Part shown: piece after piece, positions 3,226 through 52,854 of the stretch | Position numbering within the stretch: the first letter of the stretch is position 1 | How the letters are laid out: every line of letters begins with the position of its first letter | Notes under the pieces: model-generated | The model's input: only the letters and a program-made list of their open reading frames with translations | Database searches by the model: none | What the model was told of the DNA's origin: nothing | Made by a program: the position numbers and the translations under genes | DNA from: Solibacillus sp. FSL R7-0668 | GTDB taxonomy: Bacteria > Bacillota > Bacilli > Bacillales_A > Planococcaceae | Reading direction: 5' to 3' | Assembly (NCBI RefSeq): GCF_038006205.1 | Contig: NZ_JBBOUU010000001.1 | Coordinates: 2,606,001-2,670,000, forward strand | Length of the DNA stretch: 64,000 bases

Positions 3226-3882
3226 TTACTTTACATCAATTAACTCTTTTAGTTGTTCAAATGTCTTTTCACCGATTCCTGTTACCTTCTTCAAATCCTC
3301 AATCACTTGAAACGACCCCTGCTCTGTACGATGACCAATAATCGCATTGGCCTTTGAGGGACCGATGCCTGGCAGCTGCGTCAATTGACTTTCATCTGCC
3401 TTATTGATATTGATTTTGCCGGATTTATTGACCCCACCTCCGCCACTAGATGAGGAAGGACTTGCAGCAGCTGTTACAAGCGTTTCAAGCTCCTCCGTTA
3501 GCTGCTCACCAACTTTTGGGATATAGAGCACCATTTCATCTTGTAGCTTTTGTGCATGGTTAATGAGTGTCGGATTGGCCTGTTCCGTATAGCCTCCTGC
3601 CGCTTCTATGGCATCCACAATGCGCATTCCTTCTTCAAGGGTATATACCCCCGGATAACGAACAGCGCCTTTCACATCGATCATATACGCTTCAGGTGGA
3701 CTCTTTTCAATTATTTCAGGTTCGGTAGGTTCAATGGCTGCAAGCGGTGTGATCGGTTCAATAGTTTGCAATGAGGAAGGTTGGGATGAATCGTCAATGG
3801 TGAAAAAATAAAGTATGAGTGCTGCGATGACAGTTCCTGCAATCACAGCCCACTTTTTATACTTCTCTAAAAACGGCTGCAC
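3226..3882 (-). CDS. comEA: ComEA competence DNA receptor
   Basis: ComEA is the membrane-anchored receptor that binds double-stranded DNA outside the membrane and passes it to ComEC. The protein of about 218 residues has an N-terminal membrane anchor, a proline/glutamate-rich stretch, an SLBB-type domain (MIDVKGAVRYPGVYTLEEG region), a serine/glycine-rich linker, and two C-terminal helix-hairpin-helix motifs (LPGIGPSKA and VTGIGEKTF). Two GTG starts are possible, at 3894 and 3882. The purine-rich GAAAGG directly abuts the first, so the second is preferred. Confidence 0.9.
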   Translation of the reverse strand: MQPFLEKYKKWAVIAGTVIAALILYFFTIDDSSQPSSLQTIEPITPLAAIEPTEPEIIEKSPPEAYMIDVKGAVRYPGVYTLEEGMRIVDAIEAAGGYTEQANPTLINHAQKLQDEMVLYIPKVGEQLTEELETLVTAAASPSSSSGGGGVNKSGKININKADESQLTQLPGIGPSKANAIIGHRTEQGSFQVIEDLKKVTGIGEKTFEQLKELIDVK

Positions 3883-3910
3883 AACAAAAAACACCCTTTC
3901 TTAAAGAAGG

Positions 3911-3943
3911 CTTTGTATATGGAGCTACTTCCACTATACAAAG
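3911..3943. repeat. inverted repeat upstream of comEA
   Basis: CTTTGTATATGGA (3911-3923) pairs with TCCACTATACAAAG (3930-3943) with one bulged base, a stem of about 13 bp in the yqeM-comEA gap. It has no clear T-tract on the minus strand, so it is not an obvious terminator. It lies in the untranslated leader or promoter region of comEA. Confidence 0.5.
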
Positions 3944-3999
3944 TTTCATTCCTCAAGAAAAGGTATTTCATGTAAACTTGTTGAAACTGTCTATTTCGA

Positions 4000-4737
4000 C
4001 TATTTGACCGCGCGAATAAAAATACGTTCACTTTCATCGTGTGGTGCTTCGTCAGTCCAATCTGCTGAAATTTCAACCGATGCAAAGCCGATTTCTTTTA
4101 ACCACATCTCATATTGCCCTATGGCAAAGGTACGCTGAAAATGCTCTTCGTCAAAGCGTTCAAATAAATCGCCTGCTGTTTGTACAAAAAACGTCATTTG
4201 ATGATAGACGGAATGCTCAAATTCACCTGGCTCGGTATGCCAAACATAGGTCAATTCACCATCATCATACGTAAATGGCCCATCTAAAAAGATTTCGTCC
4301 ATTTTAAATAGGGAATGCACATCAAAAAACAATTGCCCACCGTCGCGCAAACTCACATAAATACGCTTTAACGTTTCCATAACGTTTGCCTCGTCTTTTA
4401 CATAGTTAATCGAATCAATCGGTATAATGGCAACATCTAAGCCGTCAAAGCCTTCGATTTCGTCCATACTCATCGCAAATAACGGCATTGTGATCCCGTT
4501 TGCTGCCATTCGTGCACTTGCCACAGCCAACATGTCTTCTGATAAATCAATTCCAGACACCTGATAGCCCTCTGCATGGAGCAAACTTGCTAATGTTCCA
4601 GTACCACAGCCAATATCTAATAATTGCTTGAATTGTATTGCGGGTGCATGGCGTGTAATCCATTGTACATACTGCCCATACGGAATATCCGTCATCAGCT
4701 CGTCATACACCTCTGCAAAACGCTCATAACTATTCAT
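4000..4737 (-). CDS. yqeM: class I SAM-dependent methyltransferase YqeM
   Basis: A 245-residue methyltransferase with the usual Rossmann motif I (LLDIGCGTGTLASLL, near residues 40-54) and the acidic motif after the second strand (SGIDLSEDML). The substrate is unknown. The start at 4737 overlaps the end of rsfS by eight bases without a clear ribosome-binding site, so translation is probably coupled. It is the last gene of the yqeG-yqeM cluster; in Bacillus subtilis the same gene closes the same block. Confidence 0.88.
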   Translation of the reverse strand: MNSYERFAEVYDELMTDIPYGQYVQWITRHAPAIQFKQLLDIGCGTGTLASLLHAEGYQVSGIDLSEDMLAVASARMAANGITMPLFAMSMDEIEGFDGLDVAIIPIDSINYVKDEANVMETLKRIYVSLRDGGQLFFDVHSLFKMDEIFLDGPFTYDDGELTYVWHTEPGEFEHSVYHQMTFFVQTAGDLFERFDEEHFQRTFAIGQYEMWLKEIGFASVEISADWTDEAPHDESERIFIRAVK

Positions 4738-5083
4738 TGTGAGTTTGTGGCGCGTCTAATTGTGGTGCATCTCCCCATAAACGCTCTAGGTTGTAGTAAG
4801 TACGCTCATCTTTGTGGAAAATATGCGCCACAACATCGCCCATATCTACTAAAATCCAACGAGCTGTATCGAAGCCTTCTAATTTGCGCACATTATAGCC
4901 TGCTTCTTCTGCTTTTTCTTTAATTTCACGTGCAATTGCTTGTACTTGGCGCTCTGAGCTACCTTCTGCGATGATGAAATAATCGGCTAAAAGTGAAATA
5001 CCTTGCATATTTAATGCAACAATATCCTCCCCGCGTTTGTCATCAATTGCTTTATACGCAATGCTTAATAATGTATCATTCAT
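4730..5083 (-). CDS. rsfS: ribosome silencing factor RsfS
   Basis: A 117-residue protein of the RsfS/Iojap family, which binds ribosomal protein L14 on the 50S subunit and blocks subunit joining under starvation. The family core is visible (DIVALNMQGISLLADYF, then the SERQVQAIA region and the DTARWILVDMGDVVAHIF block). It sits between yqeK and yqeM in the conserved order and overlaps yqeM by eight bases. Confidence 0.92.
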   Translation of the reverse strand: MNDTLLSIAYKAIDDKRGEDIVALNMQGISLLADYFIIAEGSSERQVQAIAREIKEKAEEAGYNVRKLEGFDTARWILVDMGDVVAHIFHKDERTYYNLERLWGDAPQLDAPQTHNE

Positions 5084-5089
5084 GTATGT

Positions 5090-5650
5090 TTAGTCCTCTC
5101 TCATTAAACTGTTGTAACATTCAATTGAAACCGGATAAATGGCTAATTGCGCACTTACTAAATGCAGTAGCGAATGCGTTACACATGCGCGAAAAGCATC
5201 ATTCAAGTCCACCTTGGCATAGGCACGTAGCTCATCAACCCCAGGAAACTTTCGATTTGGTTCAATCATGTCGGCAACAAAAATTATTTTTTCAAATGTG
5301 GTCATATTCGCTCGTCCAGTCGTATGGAATCGAATGGCATTTAAGATGTCTTCATCGTCAATTTGGAATTCGTTTTGGACAATCCATGCGCCAACAGGTC
5401 CATGTAAAATCTCGCTATTCCATTCTAGTAATCGCGGATCTAAATGATGTTCGTAAACGACTTTTTTCATCCATTCGACATCGGCATATTTAGCAATATC
5501 ATGAAAAATCGCGGCCACTTCAGCCTTTTTTTCATCTTGCCCATAGCGCTTTGCCAATTGAATCGCGGTTTCCATTACACCAATCGTATGAATATACCGT
5601 TTATTTGGCATACGATCTTTAATTGCCGCTAACATTGCTTGACGCTCCAT
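5090..5650 (-). CDS. yqeK: HD-domain Ap4A hydrolase YqeK
   Basis: A 186-residue HD-domain protein. Family members hydrolyse diadenosine tetraphosphate symmetrically to two ADP. Metal ligands are visible as the early His in the RYIHTIGVM segment, the HD pair in AAIFHDIAKY, and later His/Asp residues (HGPVGAWI, FVADMIEPNR). The start at 5650 follows AAGGAAGG by five bases and lies inside the 3' end of nadD, overlapping it by 32 bases. Confidence 0.9.
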   Translation of the reverse strand: MERQAMLAAIKDRMPNKRYIHTIGVMETAIQLAKRYGQDEKKAEVAAIFHDIAKYADVEWMKKVVYEHHLDPRLLEWNSEILHGPVGAWIVQNEFQIDDEDILNAIRFHTTGRANMTTFEKIIFVADMIEPNRKFPGVDELRAYAKVDLNDAFRACVTHSLLHLVSAQLAIYPVSIECYNSLMRED

Positions 5651-6209
5651 AGAGACCTTCCTTTCGAATATACTGCTCCACTGTTTCGGGTAATAAATAC
5701 TTTAGGGAGCCTTGCTGTTGTAATCGATTCCGAATAAATGTTGAAGAAAGATTAATCTCCGGTGCTTCCACCATTTGTACATTATAATCTGTTTTGGCCT
5801 CAAAACCTGGACGCTTCACTCCAACAAAATGGACAAGCTCGACCAACTCATCAATGCGATACCATGTATGAAGCGAGTCAATCATATCGCCACCAATGAT
5901 GAAATAAAATACTACATCGGGTTCGCGTTCACATAATGCCTTCATCGTATCGTACGTATAGGATATGCCTCCACGCTCAAGCTCAAACGTTTCCAGCTTA
6001 AAATAAGGTACGCCTTCAATTGCAAGCTCAACCATTTTTAAACGCTGTTCATTTGTGGCAGATTGAGATACCTCTTTATGCGGTGCTTTTGCATTTGGCA
6101 TAAAGCGTACTTCTGACAAACCAAGTGCCACATACACCTCATTCGCCATTATTAAATGACCAATATGTGGCGGATTAAATGTCCCTCCAAAAAGACCAAC
6201 CTTCTTCAT
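5619..6209 (-). CDS. nadD: nicotinate-nucleotide adenylyltransferase
   Basis: NadD converts nicotinate mononucleotide and ATP to deamido-NAD. The nucleotidyltransferase signature GGTFNPPHIGH lies near the N terminus, and the C-terminal STFIRNR matches the family's ISSTxIR motif. The ATG at 6209 is preferred over 6215 because AAGGTG is then seven bases upstream. Length is about 196 residues, normal for the family. It lies between yhbY and yqeK. Confidence 0.94.
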   Translation of the reverse strand: MKKVGLFGGTFNPPHIGHLIMANEVYVALGLSEVRFMPNAKAPHKEVSQSATNEQRLKMVELAIEGVPYFKLETFELERGGISYTYDTMKALCEREPDVVFYFIIGGDMIDSLHTWYRIDELVELVHFVGVKRPGFEAKTDYNVQMVEAPEINLSSTFIRNRLQQQGSLKYLLPETVEQYIRKEGLYGASSNVSGN

Positions 6210-50535: not shown

Positions 50536-50580
50536 AATAGCAGCCTAACGGTTTTTTTGCCGTTAAGCTGCTTTATTTTA
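50534..50580. terminator. bidirectional terminator after niaR
   Basis: GCAGCcTAACGG (50540-50551) and CCGTTAaGCTGC (50560-50571) form a stem of 11 pairs with one mismatch, with T/A-rich flanks on both sides. It separates niaR from the convergent SEDS gene. Confidence 0.85.
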
Positions 50581-51876
50581 TGACGCCATCTTGTGCGCTA
50601 TCATATAAGATTTTCTTCGATACACGCTTAATACAAGCCCAATTAAAATGGCGTTGAGTAATAATGGTGTCATCCCATAGCTGATAAATGGCAATGGCAC
50701 ACCTGTCAGTGGTAGGAAACCAAATACCATTAATATCGAGTAAAGACTTTGGGCACTGTATAATGTCACCGCGGCGATGACAAGCAATTTTCCAAATGAT
50801 TGCGGCATCGTGCGTGCATGCCATAAAATGCGCAGTGCAATCCCAAGTATAACTAGTATGGCAGCGACACCCGCCACATAGCCATATGCTTGAATGAGCT
50901 GGATTAAGGCATAATCGGTATGTGCTTCTGGTACATAGTAAATCGTTTCCGCTCCAAACCAACCCGCCCTTGCAAGTGCTGTTTTAATTTGGAGCATCAT
51001 ATAGCCTTCCGATGTCGCAAATAAGTCAGGATTTAAAAATGCGGCGATACGCACCGTTTGATACGGTTCGAGTAAAAAATGATAAGCATATATACTGTAC
51101 AAAATGAGCGCTACGTTTATTGTTCCTACTACTACAAAGACCGTTTGCTTCACTTTACGCGCAAAATGACTAAAGCTAAATAATACTGCTACAACGACAA
51201 TATATAGCATTGCAACCGCAAGATTTGGTAGCTTCATAATTAAATAAAGCGGCAATAAAAATAACCCCGTTAACTGCCATAGCTTCCATTTTCGTTCGGT
51301 AAAAAACCCTGCAAATGCTACTAGTAATAGTGGTAGCACTGTCCATGCTTGAATGAGAATTGGCCCGATTCGAAACATCGCTTCTCCATTACGGAAGGTA
51401 TTAGAAATCAAGGGCAGTATAGCAAGTAACAGGGTTGCCACGCCATAAATTGGAAAACTAAAGCGTTGTAACTTACGGTAATCCACAAACATTAGCCCCA
51501 CAATTAACGCCATTGCTAACACTATATGAATAATTTTATTTTCTACTAAATAACGTGTCATATCATATCCGAACACTTCATTTACATCCACTGTTAAAAT
51601 CGGTACAAAGCTTGAGGCTATCAGTAAAATAACCGCACCCATTAACCAAAAATCCCATTTCGGTCGGTGAATTTTGTCTAGTGATTTTCCCAATTGCGAT
51701 GCAGAGCCCATTTCGCTAATCGCTTTTTGCTCGGCTTCCTCTCGAGAATAGCCCTTACTGACCCATGCCTTTGTAGAATGCCCAATATGCTGCTGCAACT
51801 CCTGTTCGACATGGCTACGTGCCTCTTTCGAACGGATATAGCTTGTAACTTGCTGTAAAAACTGCTTACTCGACAT
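50578..51876 (-). CDS. FtsW/RodA/SpoVE-family protein with N-terminal permease-prefix domain
   Basis: A 432-residue SEDS-family protein. Residues about 5-72 form a cytoplasmic HAAS/permease-prefix domain (SKEARSHVEQELQQHIGHS, KGYSREEAEQKAISEMG), followed by about ten membrane spans. The SEDS extracellular-loop motif is seen as EAHTDYALIQ with Asp near 321, and the C-terminal motif as GVPLPFISYGMTPLL. SEDS proteins polymerise glycan strands. It is the last gene of an ECF sigma operon, overlapping the HTH gene by 11 bases. Confidence 0.88.
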   Translation of the reverse strand: MSSKQFLQQVTSYIRSKEARSHVEQELQQHIGHSTKAWVSKGYSREEAEQKAISEMGSASQLGKSLDKIHRPKWDFWLMGAVILLIASSFVPILTVDVNEVFGYDMTRYLVENKIIHIVLAMALIVGLMFVDYRKLQRFSFPIYGVATLLLAILPLISNTFRNGEAMFRIGPILIQAWTVLPLLLVAFAGFFTERKWKLWQLTGLFLLPLYLIMKLPNLAVAMLYIVVVAVLFSFSHFARKVKQTVFVVVGTINVALILYSIYAYHFLLEPYQTVRIAAFLNPDLFATSEGYMMLQIKTALARAGWFGAETIYYVPEAHTDYALIQLIQAYGYVAGVAAILVILGIALRILWHARTMPQSFGKLLVIAAVTLYSAQSLYSILMVFGFLPLTGVPLPFISYGMTPLLLNAILIGLVLSVYRRKSYMIAHKMAS

Positions 51877-52273
51877 GCATGCGCACCCCCAAAATTCGTT
51901 GTTTTAGCGTAAGTTTGATGCGCTCGCTGTCCTGCTGCAATTGCTTTGTCCCAAGCTTTGTTAATTGATAATATTTAATACCTTCATGCCAGCTTGCCAT
52001 CAGCCAGCCCTGCTGCTCTGCTTCATGTAAAATGCTGTAAACCAATCCTTCATTCTCAACAATTTGCTCAACAGCGCGCACATGCAGCTGCTGTGTCAGC
52101 TCAACACCTGATTTTGCTTCAGTCAGCATCGATAAAATTTGCTGCTTTAATGAAGCGCTTTGTAGCTGCTTTCGAATATTTTGCTGATGCTCATTTGTAA
52201 ATTCCAGCTGTTTAAAGGCCGTTTGATCGACGGTTTTTTTTAATTTTTTTAATCGCTCTTCCACATTATTCAC
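51866..52273 (-). CDS. PadR-like helix-turn-helix protein
   Basis: A 135-residue protein. A charged helical N terminus (about 1-40) precedes a winged-helix domain resembling PadR (LKQQILSMLTEAKSGVELTQQL, then GLVYSILHEAEQQGWL and YYQLTKLGTKQL). It probably regulates this operon or acts with the sigma factor. It overlaps the ECF sigma gene by eight bases and the SEDS gene by 11, indicating coupling. Confidence 0.72.
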   Translation of the reverse strand: MNNVEERLKKLKKTVDQTAFKQLEFTNEHQQNIRKQLQSASLKQQILSMLTEAKSGVELTQQLHVRAVEQIVENEGLVYSILHEAEQQGWLMASWHEGIKYYQLTKLGTKQLQQDSERIKLTLKQRILGVRMHVE

Positions 52274-52802
52274 GCTCCAATCGTTTCTTTAATAATTGTT
52301 TTGCCTTGCGAAGCCTTGTTTTTACAGTGCTTTCATTTAACTGCAAGACCTCTGCCATTTCCTTCATCGTTTGTTCCTCGTAATAGCATAAATAAATGAC
52401 TTCGCGGTATTTCATAGGTAATGCAAATACCGCGCGCACTAATTCATCATCCTGCTCTTGCTGGATGACCTGCTGTTCTACACAATCAGCACTCTTCACT
52501 TGTGCAAATAAGTCTTCCTTTGCGGCCTCTACATTTCTTGCATACCAGCTTTTTAAATAATCCTTTGTATGATTAATCGCAATACGCCACAGCCATGTTT
52601 TTAGCGAGGAATTAAAATGGAATGTGGGCAATGCCTGATAGCATTTCACAAAAATTTCTTGCGTTAAATCTTCTGCAATCGCTCGATTATGTACGTACTG
52701 CATGACGAGCTGTAAAATATCTTGGCCATAATCACTCATCAGCTCATCAATGATAACTTCATAGGAAAGTTGTTTCGTTTGTTCAATTGAATAGCTATCC
52801 AC
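52266..52802 (-). CDS. ECF-type RNA polymerase sigma factor
   Basis: A 178-residue sigma-70 family factor with only regions 2 and 4. Region 2 (NRAIAEDLTQEIFVKCYQALPTF, then LKTWLWRIAINHTKDYLKSWY) and region 4 (LPMKYREVIYLCYYEEQTMKEMAEVL, LNESTVKTRLRKAKQLLKK) are clear. The GTG at 52802 follows GGAGG by seven bases. No classical anti-sigma gene adjoins it; the HTH and membrane SEDS proteins occupy that position. A matching ECF promoter lies upstream. Confidence 0.88.
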   Translation of the reverse strand: MDSYSIEQTKQLSYEVIIDELMSDYGQDILQLVMQYVHNRAIAEDLTQEIFVKCYQALPTFHFNSSLKTWLWRIAINHTKDYLKSWYARNVEAAKEDLFAQVKSADCVEQQVIQQEQDDELVRAVFALPMKYREVIYLCYYEEQTMKEMAEVLQLNESTVKTRLRKAKQLLKKRLERE

Positions 52803-52827
52803 TTCTTTTCCTCCCTTCCTAACATTA

Positions 52828-52854
52828 GACGAGTGCCGTTTAATCAAAGTTTGC
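52828..52854 (-). promoter_or_regulatory. ECF-type promoter of the sigma/HTH/SEDS operon
   Basis: On the minus strand GCAAAC (52854-52849) and CGTC (52831-52828) are 17 bases apart, matching the Bacillus ECF pattern TGAAAC-N16/17-CGTC at eight of ten positions. It ends 25 bases before the GTG. This suggests autoregulation by the encoded sigma factor. Confidence 0.5.

Follow-up and report, generated by a model that had tools for sequence, protein, structure and literature searches.

We analysed a window of 64,000 nucleotides from Solibacillus sp. FSL R7-0668 (contig NZ_JBBOUU010000001.1, positions 2,606,001 to 2,670,000; positions below are counted from its first letter) and focused on three co-directional minus-strand open reading frames (ORFs), lying from 52847 to 50578, which encode an extracytoplasmic function (ECF) sigma factor, a PadR-type protein, and a SEDS (FtsW/RodA-like) membrane protein preceded by a HAAS domain. 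The operon is of the same type as sigC-lstR-lmo0421 of Listeria monocytogenes lineage II, described by Hauf et al. in 2019 (PMC6624303), a kinship that a previous sequence-only reading of this DNA had missed, and its gene set and the HAAS-SEDS fusion are already known. What appears to be new is the location of an anti-sigma segment on the PadR. We propose that the operon is probably an ECF sigma switch that is complete in itself and has a split anti-sigma factor, in which an N-terminal arm of the PadR holds the sigma factor and the PadR in turn answers to the HAAS-SEDS protein. Judged from the sequences, binding of the sigma factor by the PadR arm is very likely, and control of the PadR through the HAAS-SEDS protein, by way of a presumed HAAS-PadR contact, is likely. 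The genes and domains concerned are as follows.

52266..52802, minus strand: ECF sigma gene (sigC type); matches NF006930, has the promoter and GGGAGG before GTG 52802, and falls in the clade of PadR-partnered sigmas
51866..52264, minus strand: PadR-type gene (LstR homologue); matches PF03551, and NF006931 below its cut-off; the AlphaFold2 model matches solved PadRs
52160..52264, minus strand: putative anti-sigma-like arm of the PadR (ORF residues 4–38), two predicted helices; from the profile and co-occurrence results
51932..52138, minus strand: PadR winged helix (residues 46–114), with a short, Lys/Arg-poor wing; Pfam range and comparison with 20 ordinary PadRs
50578..51876, minus strand: HAAS/permease-prefix and SEDS (FtsW/RodA-like) membrane protein of 432 amino acids; from profile matches, AlphaFold2, and Foldseek matches to RodA/FtsW
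51679..51864, minus strand: HAAS/permease prefix domain (residues 5–66), helical, before the membrane part; NF038403 above and PF22564 below cut-off
50611..51654, minus strand: SEDS domain (residues 75–422) in which the canonical Trp is missing, as are the Glu and Lys of QP[SA]E..K; comparison of 94 members with three paralogues from the same genome

Likeness of the PadR arm to the membrane partners of sister sigma factors

The arm was conserved as strongly as the winged helix; among 34 sequences, F20 and F25 were invariant and M4, L8, K9, and K12 were present in at least 90%. In the 41 solved PadR sequences with a match, the alignment began at position 27 or later. When 398 genomes of the class were searched with the PadR model (159 matched), the 13 best matches, including that of the window, covered the model from position 1–3, and the other matches listed began at model position 18 or later. 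An AlphaFold2 model of the single PadR chain placed arm helices at residues 3–17 and 27–37 with low confidence.

A search of 200 genomes of the window's family with the arm alone returned PadRs and, in addition, long ORFs. Among 40 fetched loci, chosen from the long-frame hits among the arm matches listed, 37 bore the arm in an N-terminal or nearly N-terminal position on an ORF directly behind a related sigma gene, and a membrane helix followed the arm, beginning at ORF residue 42–63; the other three were internal matches in ABC ATPases and were discarded. The sole NCBIfam match of one membrane protein (P0001) was to NF006931 (residues 1–41, E 0.001), which is the NCBI model matched by LstR-type PadRs. 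Both arrangements occurred side by side in Psychrobacillus faecigallinarum (L113). Here another sigma gene, a related one, precedes a long ORF that matches the arm over its first 38 residues, and this pair of sigma and membrane partner (1–2058) adjoins the sigma-PadR-SEDS operon (3411–5726) in divergent orientation.

An earlier profile comparison of the arm with the membrane-partner segments was partly circular because its second set had been chosen with the first; an independent profile of 61 segments removes this circularity. Loci were collected without the arm by searching 299 genomes of the class with the sigma alignment (230 matched) and examining 90 of them, 30 that the search itself returned and 60 selected manually in list order with some skipped; those skipped included several already fetched as arm-bearing. 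The 12 best sigmas of the 90 all had an arm-bearing PadR partner (16.5–64.2 bits), and 71 of the remaining 78 sister sigmas were partnered by a protein in which a short cytosolic segment precedes a membrane helix. The new profile was built from 61 non-redundant cytosolic segments selected by sigma adjacency and membrane helix, not by the arm. With it, each of the 101 PadR N-termini outscored every one of the 1,508 controls (1,010 shuffles, 476 N-termini of other proteins, and 22 PadRs with a late-starting alignment), with a median of 25.6 bits for the PadRs and 10.2 bits for the best control. In the opposite direction, membrane partners reached up to 23.8 bits with the PadR-arm profile, compared with a maximum of 11.2 in 1,780 shuffles.

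The best explanation of these results is that the arm shares its ancestry with the cytosolic segment found in single-helix membrane anti-sigma factors, as far as sequence comparison can tell. Like such factors, the PadR carries the homologous segment and is encoded directly downstream of the sigma gene, but no membrane helix follows the arm; the winged helix takes its place, and the membrane part is encoded by the following gene. We ruled out that the arm arose as a by-product of overlapping genes, because in many relatives the PadR and sigma genes do not overlap. A previous sequence-only reading of this DNA had put forward the helix-turn-helix protein as a possible anti-sigma factor, a suggestion now strongly supported by the match of its N-terminus to the cytosolic segment of the sister membrane partners. 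The same reading held that a classical anti-sigma gene was missing. In all likelihood the PadR carries, as a fusion, the anti-sigma segment that faces the sigma factor, which would explain the apparent lack.

Several observations pull the other way. The arm blocks of the single-chain PadR model had mean pLDDT (predicted local distance difference test) values of only 52–64, and in a sequence search of solved structures no chain matched the anti-sigma segment. Many of the sampled membrane partners scored low with the PadR-arm profile, and two of the 22 late-starting PadRs (L047 and L145), which bear the arm on shortened ORFs, did not rise above the controls. Listeria LstR carries the arm by the PadR-arm profile (23.9 bits), but with the membrane-partner profile it reached 12.0 bits as a whole and 10.3 bits over its best stretch, about the level of the best control. 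The anti-sigma role of the sister membrane partners is itself a reading of their gene and protein layout.

Co-occurrence of the arm and the sigma gene

We compared 147 loci (L005–L151), which gave 123 distinct PadRs after L048, which has no intact PadR, was dropped and identical PadRs were counted once. The arm and an upstream sigma gene coincided in 103 of these and were both missing from the other 20, without exception. All 103 arm-bearing PadRs had the sigma gene directly upstream and HAAS-SEDS downstream. Fifty-four of the loci, from named genomes, had been retrieved with the arm itself as the search pattern, and their arms are therefore no evidence; when they were left out, 69 PadRs had both and 20 had neither, again without exception. 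Nineteen of the 20 PadRs lacking both arm and sigma adjoined a protein matching the HAAS-SEDS profile (16 SEDS-length or split SEDS genes and three of approximately 210 residues), and thus the arm tracks the sigma factor, not the membrane partner. In 16 loci from the class genomes (L081–L095 and L097), a PadR without the arm stood with a HAAS-SEDS gene (split in L088), and no sigma gene was present within approximately 1.4–1.5 kb upstream. These loci are possibly an older, sigma-free form of the module.

A tree was calculated from 120 sigma sequences, retained from 229 after near copies were dropped. The 38 PadR-partnered sigmas lay on one side of a branch with an SH-aLRT (Shimodaira–Hasegawa-like approximate likelihood ratio test) support of 98, against 82 sisters on the other, which is consistent with one origin of the PadR-partnered sigmas.

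The SEDS protein as a putative receptor

The SEDS part matched PF01098 with 129.7 bits (cut-off 26.4), and its AlphaFold2 model was confident (pLDDT 86.0, predicted template modelling score 0.81), with FtsW and RodA as the nearest solved folds in Foldseek. Polymerisation by RodA and FtsW requires the Trp, Glu, Lys, and Asp motif residues; the solved D255A mutant of RodA differs at the Asp of HTDF. In 94 distinct members, left from 113 after identical ones were dropped, the Glu of QP[SA]E and the Lys three residues later were lost throughout (94/94), and the aligned Trp of GxxSW was kept in eight and lost in 86, including the window protein, a GxxSW-like string being present somewhere in 17 of the 94. 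All four residues were kept in the three other SEDS proteins of the same genome (3/3). The motif residues were also degraded in the aligned loci among L081–L095 and L097. Since the motif Glu and Lys are lost from every member, the balance tips towards a receptor rather than a polymerase.

The alternative is that the SEDS protein is an effector, produced once the switch fires and serving as a back-up or drug-resistant peptidoglycan polymerase, as proposed by Hauf et al. (PMC6624303); this would be compatible with the PadR model. Points in its favour are the fold, which is like that of RodA and FtsW, and the catalytic-site Asp (HTDF), kept in 68 of 94 members including the window protein. This Asp tells against the receptor, as does the Trp, which is lost in the window protein but kept in Listeria Lmo0421. 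Set against the effector are the lost residues and the inability of overproduced Lmo0421 to take over from FtsW or RodA under the test conditions used in Listeria (PMC6624303). We consider the effector unlikely. The same two observations, the missing canonical residues and the failed replacement, make doubtful the idea in the sequence-only reading that a cell-wall polymerase is tied directly to its own sigma factor. A fuller proposal, in which the PadR gave up DNA binding and the dead SEDS protein became a membrane receptor, probably for lipid II or for a drug that mimics or blocks it, is put forward tentatively, as a possibility.

DNA binding by the PadR and the promoter of the sigma gene

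Hauf et al. interpreted LstR as a repressor acting at an operator recognition site, and reported that deletion of lstR raised lmo0421 and lmo0423 approximately 140-fold and PsigC-lacZ 77-fold and that an L90A L92A L93A mutant of LstR was derepressed (PMC6624303). On that interpretation, which weighs against ours, an LstR-type PadR would bind DNA as a conventional autorepressor and block the sigma promoter, and the arm would be an accessory. The PadR fold is indeed intact: PF03551 was matched with 36.7 bits (cut-off 27) and NF006931 with 94.1, under its cut-off of 112, and the winged helix in the AlphaFold2 model matched solved PadRs. However, the 52 family PadRs had a shorter wing than 20 ordinary PadRs (which include near copies) and fewer Lys/Arg residues at positions 61, 65, 74, 98, and 99, among others, although they gained some at 54, 66, and 110. 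At wing positions 98 and 99, Lys/Arg occurred in 4% and 10% of the family PadRs versus 95% and 100% of the ordinary ones. The mutated leucines L90, L92, and L93 of LstR sit in the core helix of the winged helix, where L82 of the window protein is invariant; the derepression may show only unfolding, so this mutant cannot tell a loss of DNA binding from a loss of folding. Hauf et al. nowhere use the terms EMSA, electrophoretic mobility, DNA binding, or footprint (PMC6624303).

The upstream region provided a further comparison, and the elements in the window are as follows.

52825..52854, minus strand: ECF promoter, −35 GCAAAC (52854–52849) and −10 CGTCTAA (52831–52825); conserved in homologous upstream regions
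52810..52815, minus strand: Shine-Dalgarno GGGAGG of the sigma gene; from the sequence and a G-rich peak at +17 to +22 from CGTC in 88 homologues

Dropping sequences that were 75% alike reduced 119 homologous upstream regions to 90 distinct ones. CGTCTA or CGTTTA was found near the start in 88 of them, and in those 88 the spacing was fixed, with AAA at −21 to −19 in 99% and C at −18 in 91%. A looser pattern, AAC-N15-18-CGT[CTA], occurred in 89 of the 90 regions, compared with a mean of 5.2 and a maximum of 13 after shuffling; as that count took the first match per region, it includes a few matches at too great a distance upstream, and the 88-region count is the sounder. The signature is far above chance and also precedes Listeria sigC, which bears out the ECF-like promoter that the sequence-only reading had recognised (GCAAAC-N17-CGTC, at 52854–52828). 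In the 88 regions aligned on the −10 box, no conserved block was found besides the promoter and the ribosome site, and no position upstream of the −35 exceeded 0.4 bits, although an operator at a variable distance would escape such an alignment, a further reservation about our interpretation. The reduced charge of the wing and the absence of an extra conserved block in these regions weaken the case for classical operator binding by the PadR, as judged from sequence. The autorepressor also leaves unexplained why the arm tracks the sigma factor and why it matches the segments of the membrane partners, and we regard it as quite unlikely.

A scan of the genome for the promoter pattern, which had been suggested as a check, was weakly informative, with 16 matches compared with 11 for the reversed control. 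AAAC-N17-CGTCTAA was also found just upstream of two paralogous ECF sigma genes of the same genome (C1:3042919, minus strand, and C1:3682215, plus strand); the signature is therefore not unique to the operon sigma, hinting that the paralogous ECF sigmas may overlap in promoter recognition.

The HAAS prefix

The prefix, encoded next to the PadR gene, matched NF038403 at residues 12–66 with 46.6 bits (cut-off 30) and scored 18.7 with the Pfam HAAS model PF22564, below its cut-off of 27. Its helices in the AlphaFold2 model are at residues 3–12, 17–40, 45–56, and 59–69, and the MG of the GxP region was kept in 93 of 94 HAAS-SEDS members. When solved structures were searched by sequence with the HAAS segment, no useful match came up. 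The sequence-only reading had offered this prefix as a second candidate for sigma binding, and it could be imagined to sequester the sigma factor at the membrane in place of the PadR, given that it precedes the membrane part and that a HAAS-SEDS gene lies behind all 103 arm-bearing PadRs. We rejected it as the anti-sigma element and consider such a role very unlikely: the 16 loci with a PadR and HAAS-SEDS but no sigma gene imply that the prefix tracks the PadR, and HAAS already has a proposed role as a PadR partner (PMC11237479). The idea that the arm binds RNA polymerase or the sigma factor so as to assist rather than inhibit transcription is scarcely plausible, because, although homology alone leaves the sign of the effect unfixed, the loss of lstR raises expression (PMC6624303) and RsiP, the partner of a sigma of the ECF265 group, inhibits (PMC8092216).

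Operon layout and conservation

The sigma ORF is open to TTG 52847 (52266–52847), but the promoter lies downstream of that codon, so the gene most likely starts at GTG 52802, behind GGGAGG, giving a product of 178 amino acids that matched the NCBIfam "sigma C" model NF006930 with 233.2 bits (cut-off 198). The PadR ORF is open to GTG 52273 (51866–52273), but the gene most likely starts at GTG 52264, where the family consensus begins. The overlaps of 8 and 11 bases given in the sequence-only reading hold for the longest ORFs, but with the start at GTG 52264 the 8-base overlap of the sigma and PadR genes may not exist. A hairpin, probably a shared terminator, lies between the operon and the convergent gene.

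50539..50572, either strand: hairpin with T-runs on both sides, likely bidirectional terminator separating the operon from the convergent 3H-domain regulator gene; read from the sequence

A PadR match was found in 58 of 200 genomes of the window's family. The operon was intact (SEDS >390 amino acids and sigma >150 amino acids) in 52 of the 63 loci from the family search, and the others comprised eight broken or fragmentary copies and three ordinary PadRs without a sigma gene. In the loci from named genomes, which include Solibacillus, Kurthia, Sporosarcina, Neobacillus, Fictibacillus, Priestia, and Halobacillus, the sigma, PadR, and SEDS were matched in 54 of 54, some of them broken. The neighbourhood survey that the sequence-only reading had recommended thus found the three-gene operon to be conserved. 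Operon copies in which genes, often several together, were broken or shortened occurred at L039, L047, L048, L050, L052, L053, L060, L061, L126, L137, and L145, which suggests that the sigma-PadR-SEDS module is dispensable.

Relation to known systems

The Listeria operon has the same gene order, families, and promoter signature as that of the window, an arm on LstR, and a HAAS-SEDS protein as its third gene. The identity between the two is 46% for the sigma, 43% over 68 residues for the PadR, and 31% for the SEDS protein, and the window proteins matched the Listeria record, which holds the operon and a downstream HAD-hydrolase gene. The sigC locus is carried by L336 (NZ_LR134402.1, 568,990 bases), filed as Listeria monocytogenes plasmid 5 and probably a piece of chromosome. 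In Listeria, expression of the operon depends wholly on sigma-C, and according to Hauf et al. how sigma-C contributes to its operon is not known; no anti-sigma role for LstR is proposed in the passages of that paper bearing on it (PMC6624303). We found no description of LstR or of the PadR of this operon as an anti-sigma factor in the literature searched, although the ECF re-classification or the 2005 Listeria paper may mention one.

CAC98500.1, one of the examples cited for HAAS-PadR dyads, is taken here to be lmo0421. Ravi et al. (2024) described the pairing of HAAS with PadR and the fusion of HAAS to FtsW/RodA, among others (PMC11237479), and the window operon has the same PadR and HAAS fused to FtsW/RodA. 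It differs in the arm, which the 20 sigma-free PadRs, 19 of them beside a match to the HAAS-SEDS profile, do not have.

From published accounts (PMC8092216, PMC8999054) and the types of partner seen, we infer that the window sigma belongs to ECF265. This group contains sigma-P of Bacillus thuringiensis, which is held inactive by RsiP, and also PadR-associated members (PMC8092216); approximately half of the group is accompanied by a single-helix anti-sigma factor, and the penicillin-binding protein PbpP is the sensor for sigma-P (PMC8092216, PMC8791391). PadR-associated ECF265 members have been listed among the groups without an anti-sigma factor, with a mechanism yet uncharacterised (PMC8999054). 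By its published description, sigma-P/RsiP resembles the operon in its ECF265 group, presumed for the operon sigma, its single-helix type of anti-sigma factor, and a sensor derived from a wall enzyme, but RsiP is one membrane protein removed by proteolysis, whereas here the arm is on a soluble PadR and the membrane protein is separate. The likeness is one of layout, as described. Class II anti-sigma domains consist of two helices in a short segment (PMC7406223, PMC8103513), and the arm resembles those of CnrY and NepR in being short, with two predicted helices joined by a flexible linker, but had no sequence match to the solved chains.

Proposed mechanism and implications

In the switch that we propose, the sigma factor would transcribe its own operon, as suggested by the promoter signature here and by its main known target in Listeria. 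The PadR would be an adaptor, whose 35-residue N-terminal arm would sequester the sigma factor by binding it and whose winged-helix body, no longer acting mainly on DNA, would dock on the HAAS domain of the SEDS protein. The SEDS protein, having lost catalytic-motif residues, would act as a receptor, with a cell-wall precursor, a lipid, or a drug as its ligand, and would alter the HAAS-PadR contact so that the sigma factor is freed or retaken.

These results likely narrow the missing anti-sigma segment of PadR-associated ECF sigmas to approximately 35 residues. They predict a soluble anti-sigma adaptor built from a repressor fold and suggest that a SEDS pseudoenzyme may act as a receptor. If this is true, a polymerase family became a sensor, as a penicillin-binding protein did in the sigma-P system, and the PadR-partnered ECF sigmas that have been listed without an anti-sigma factor would have a split one.

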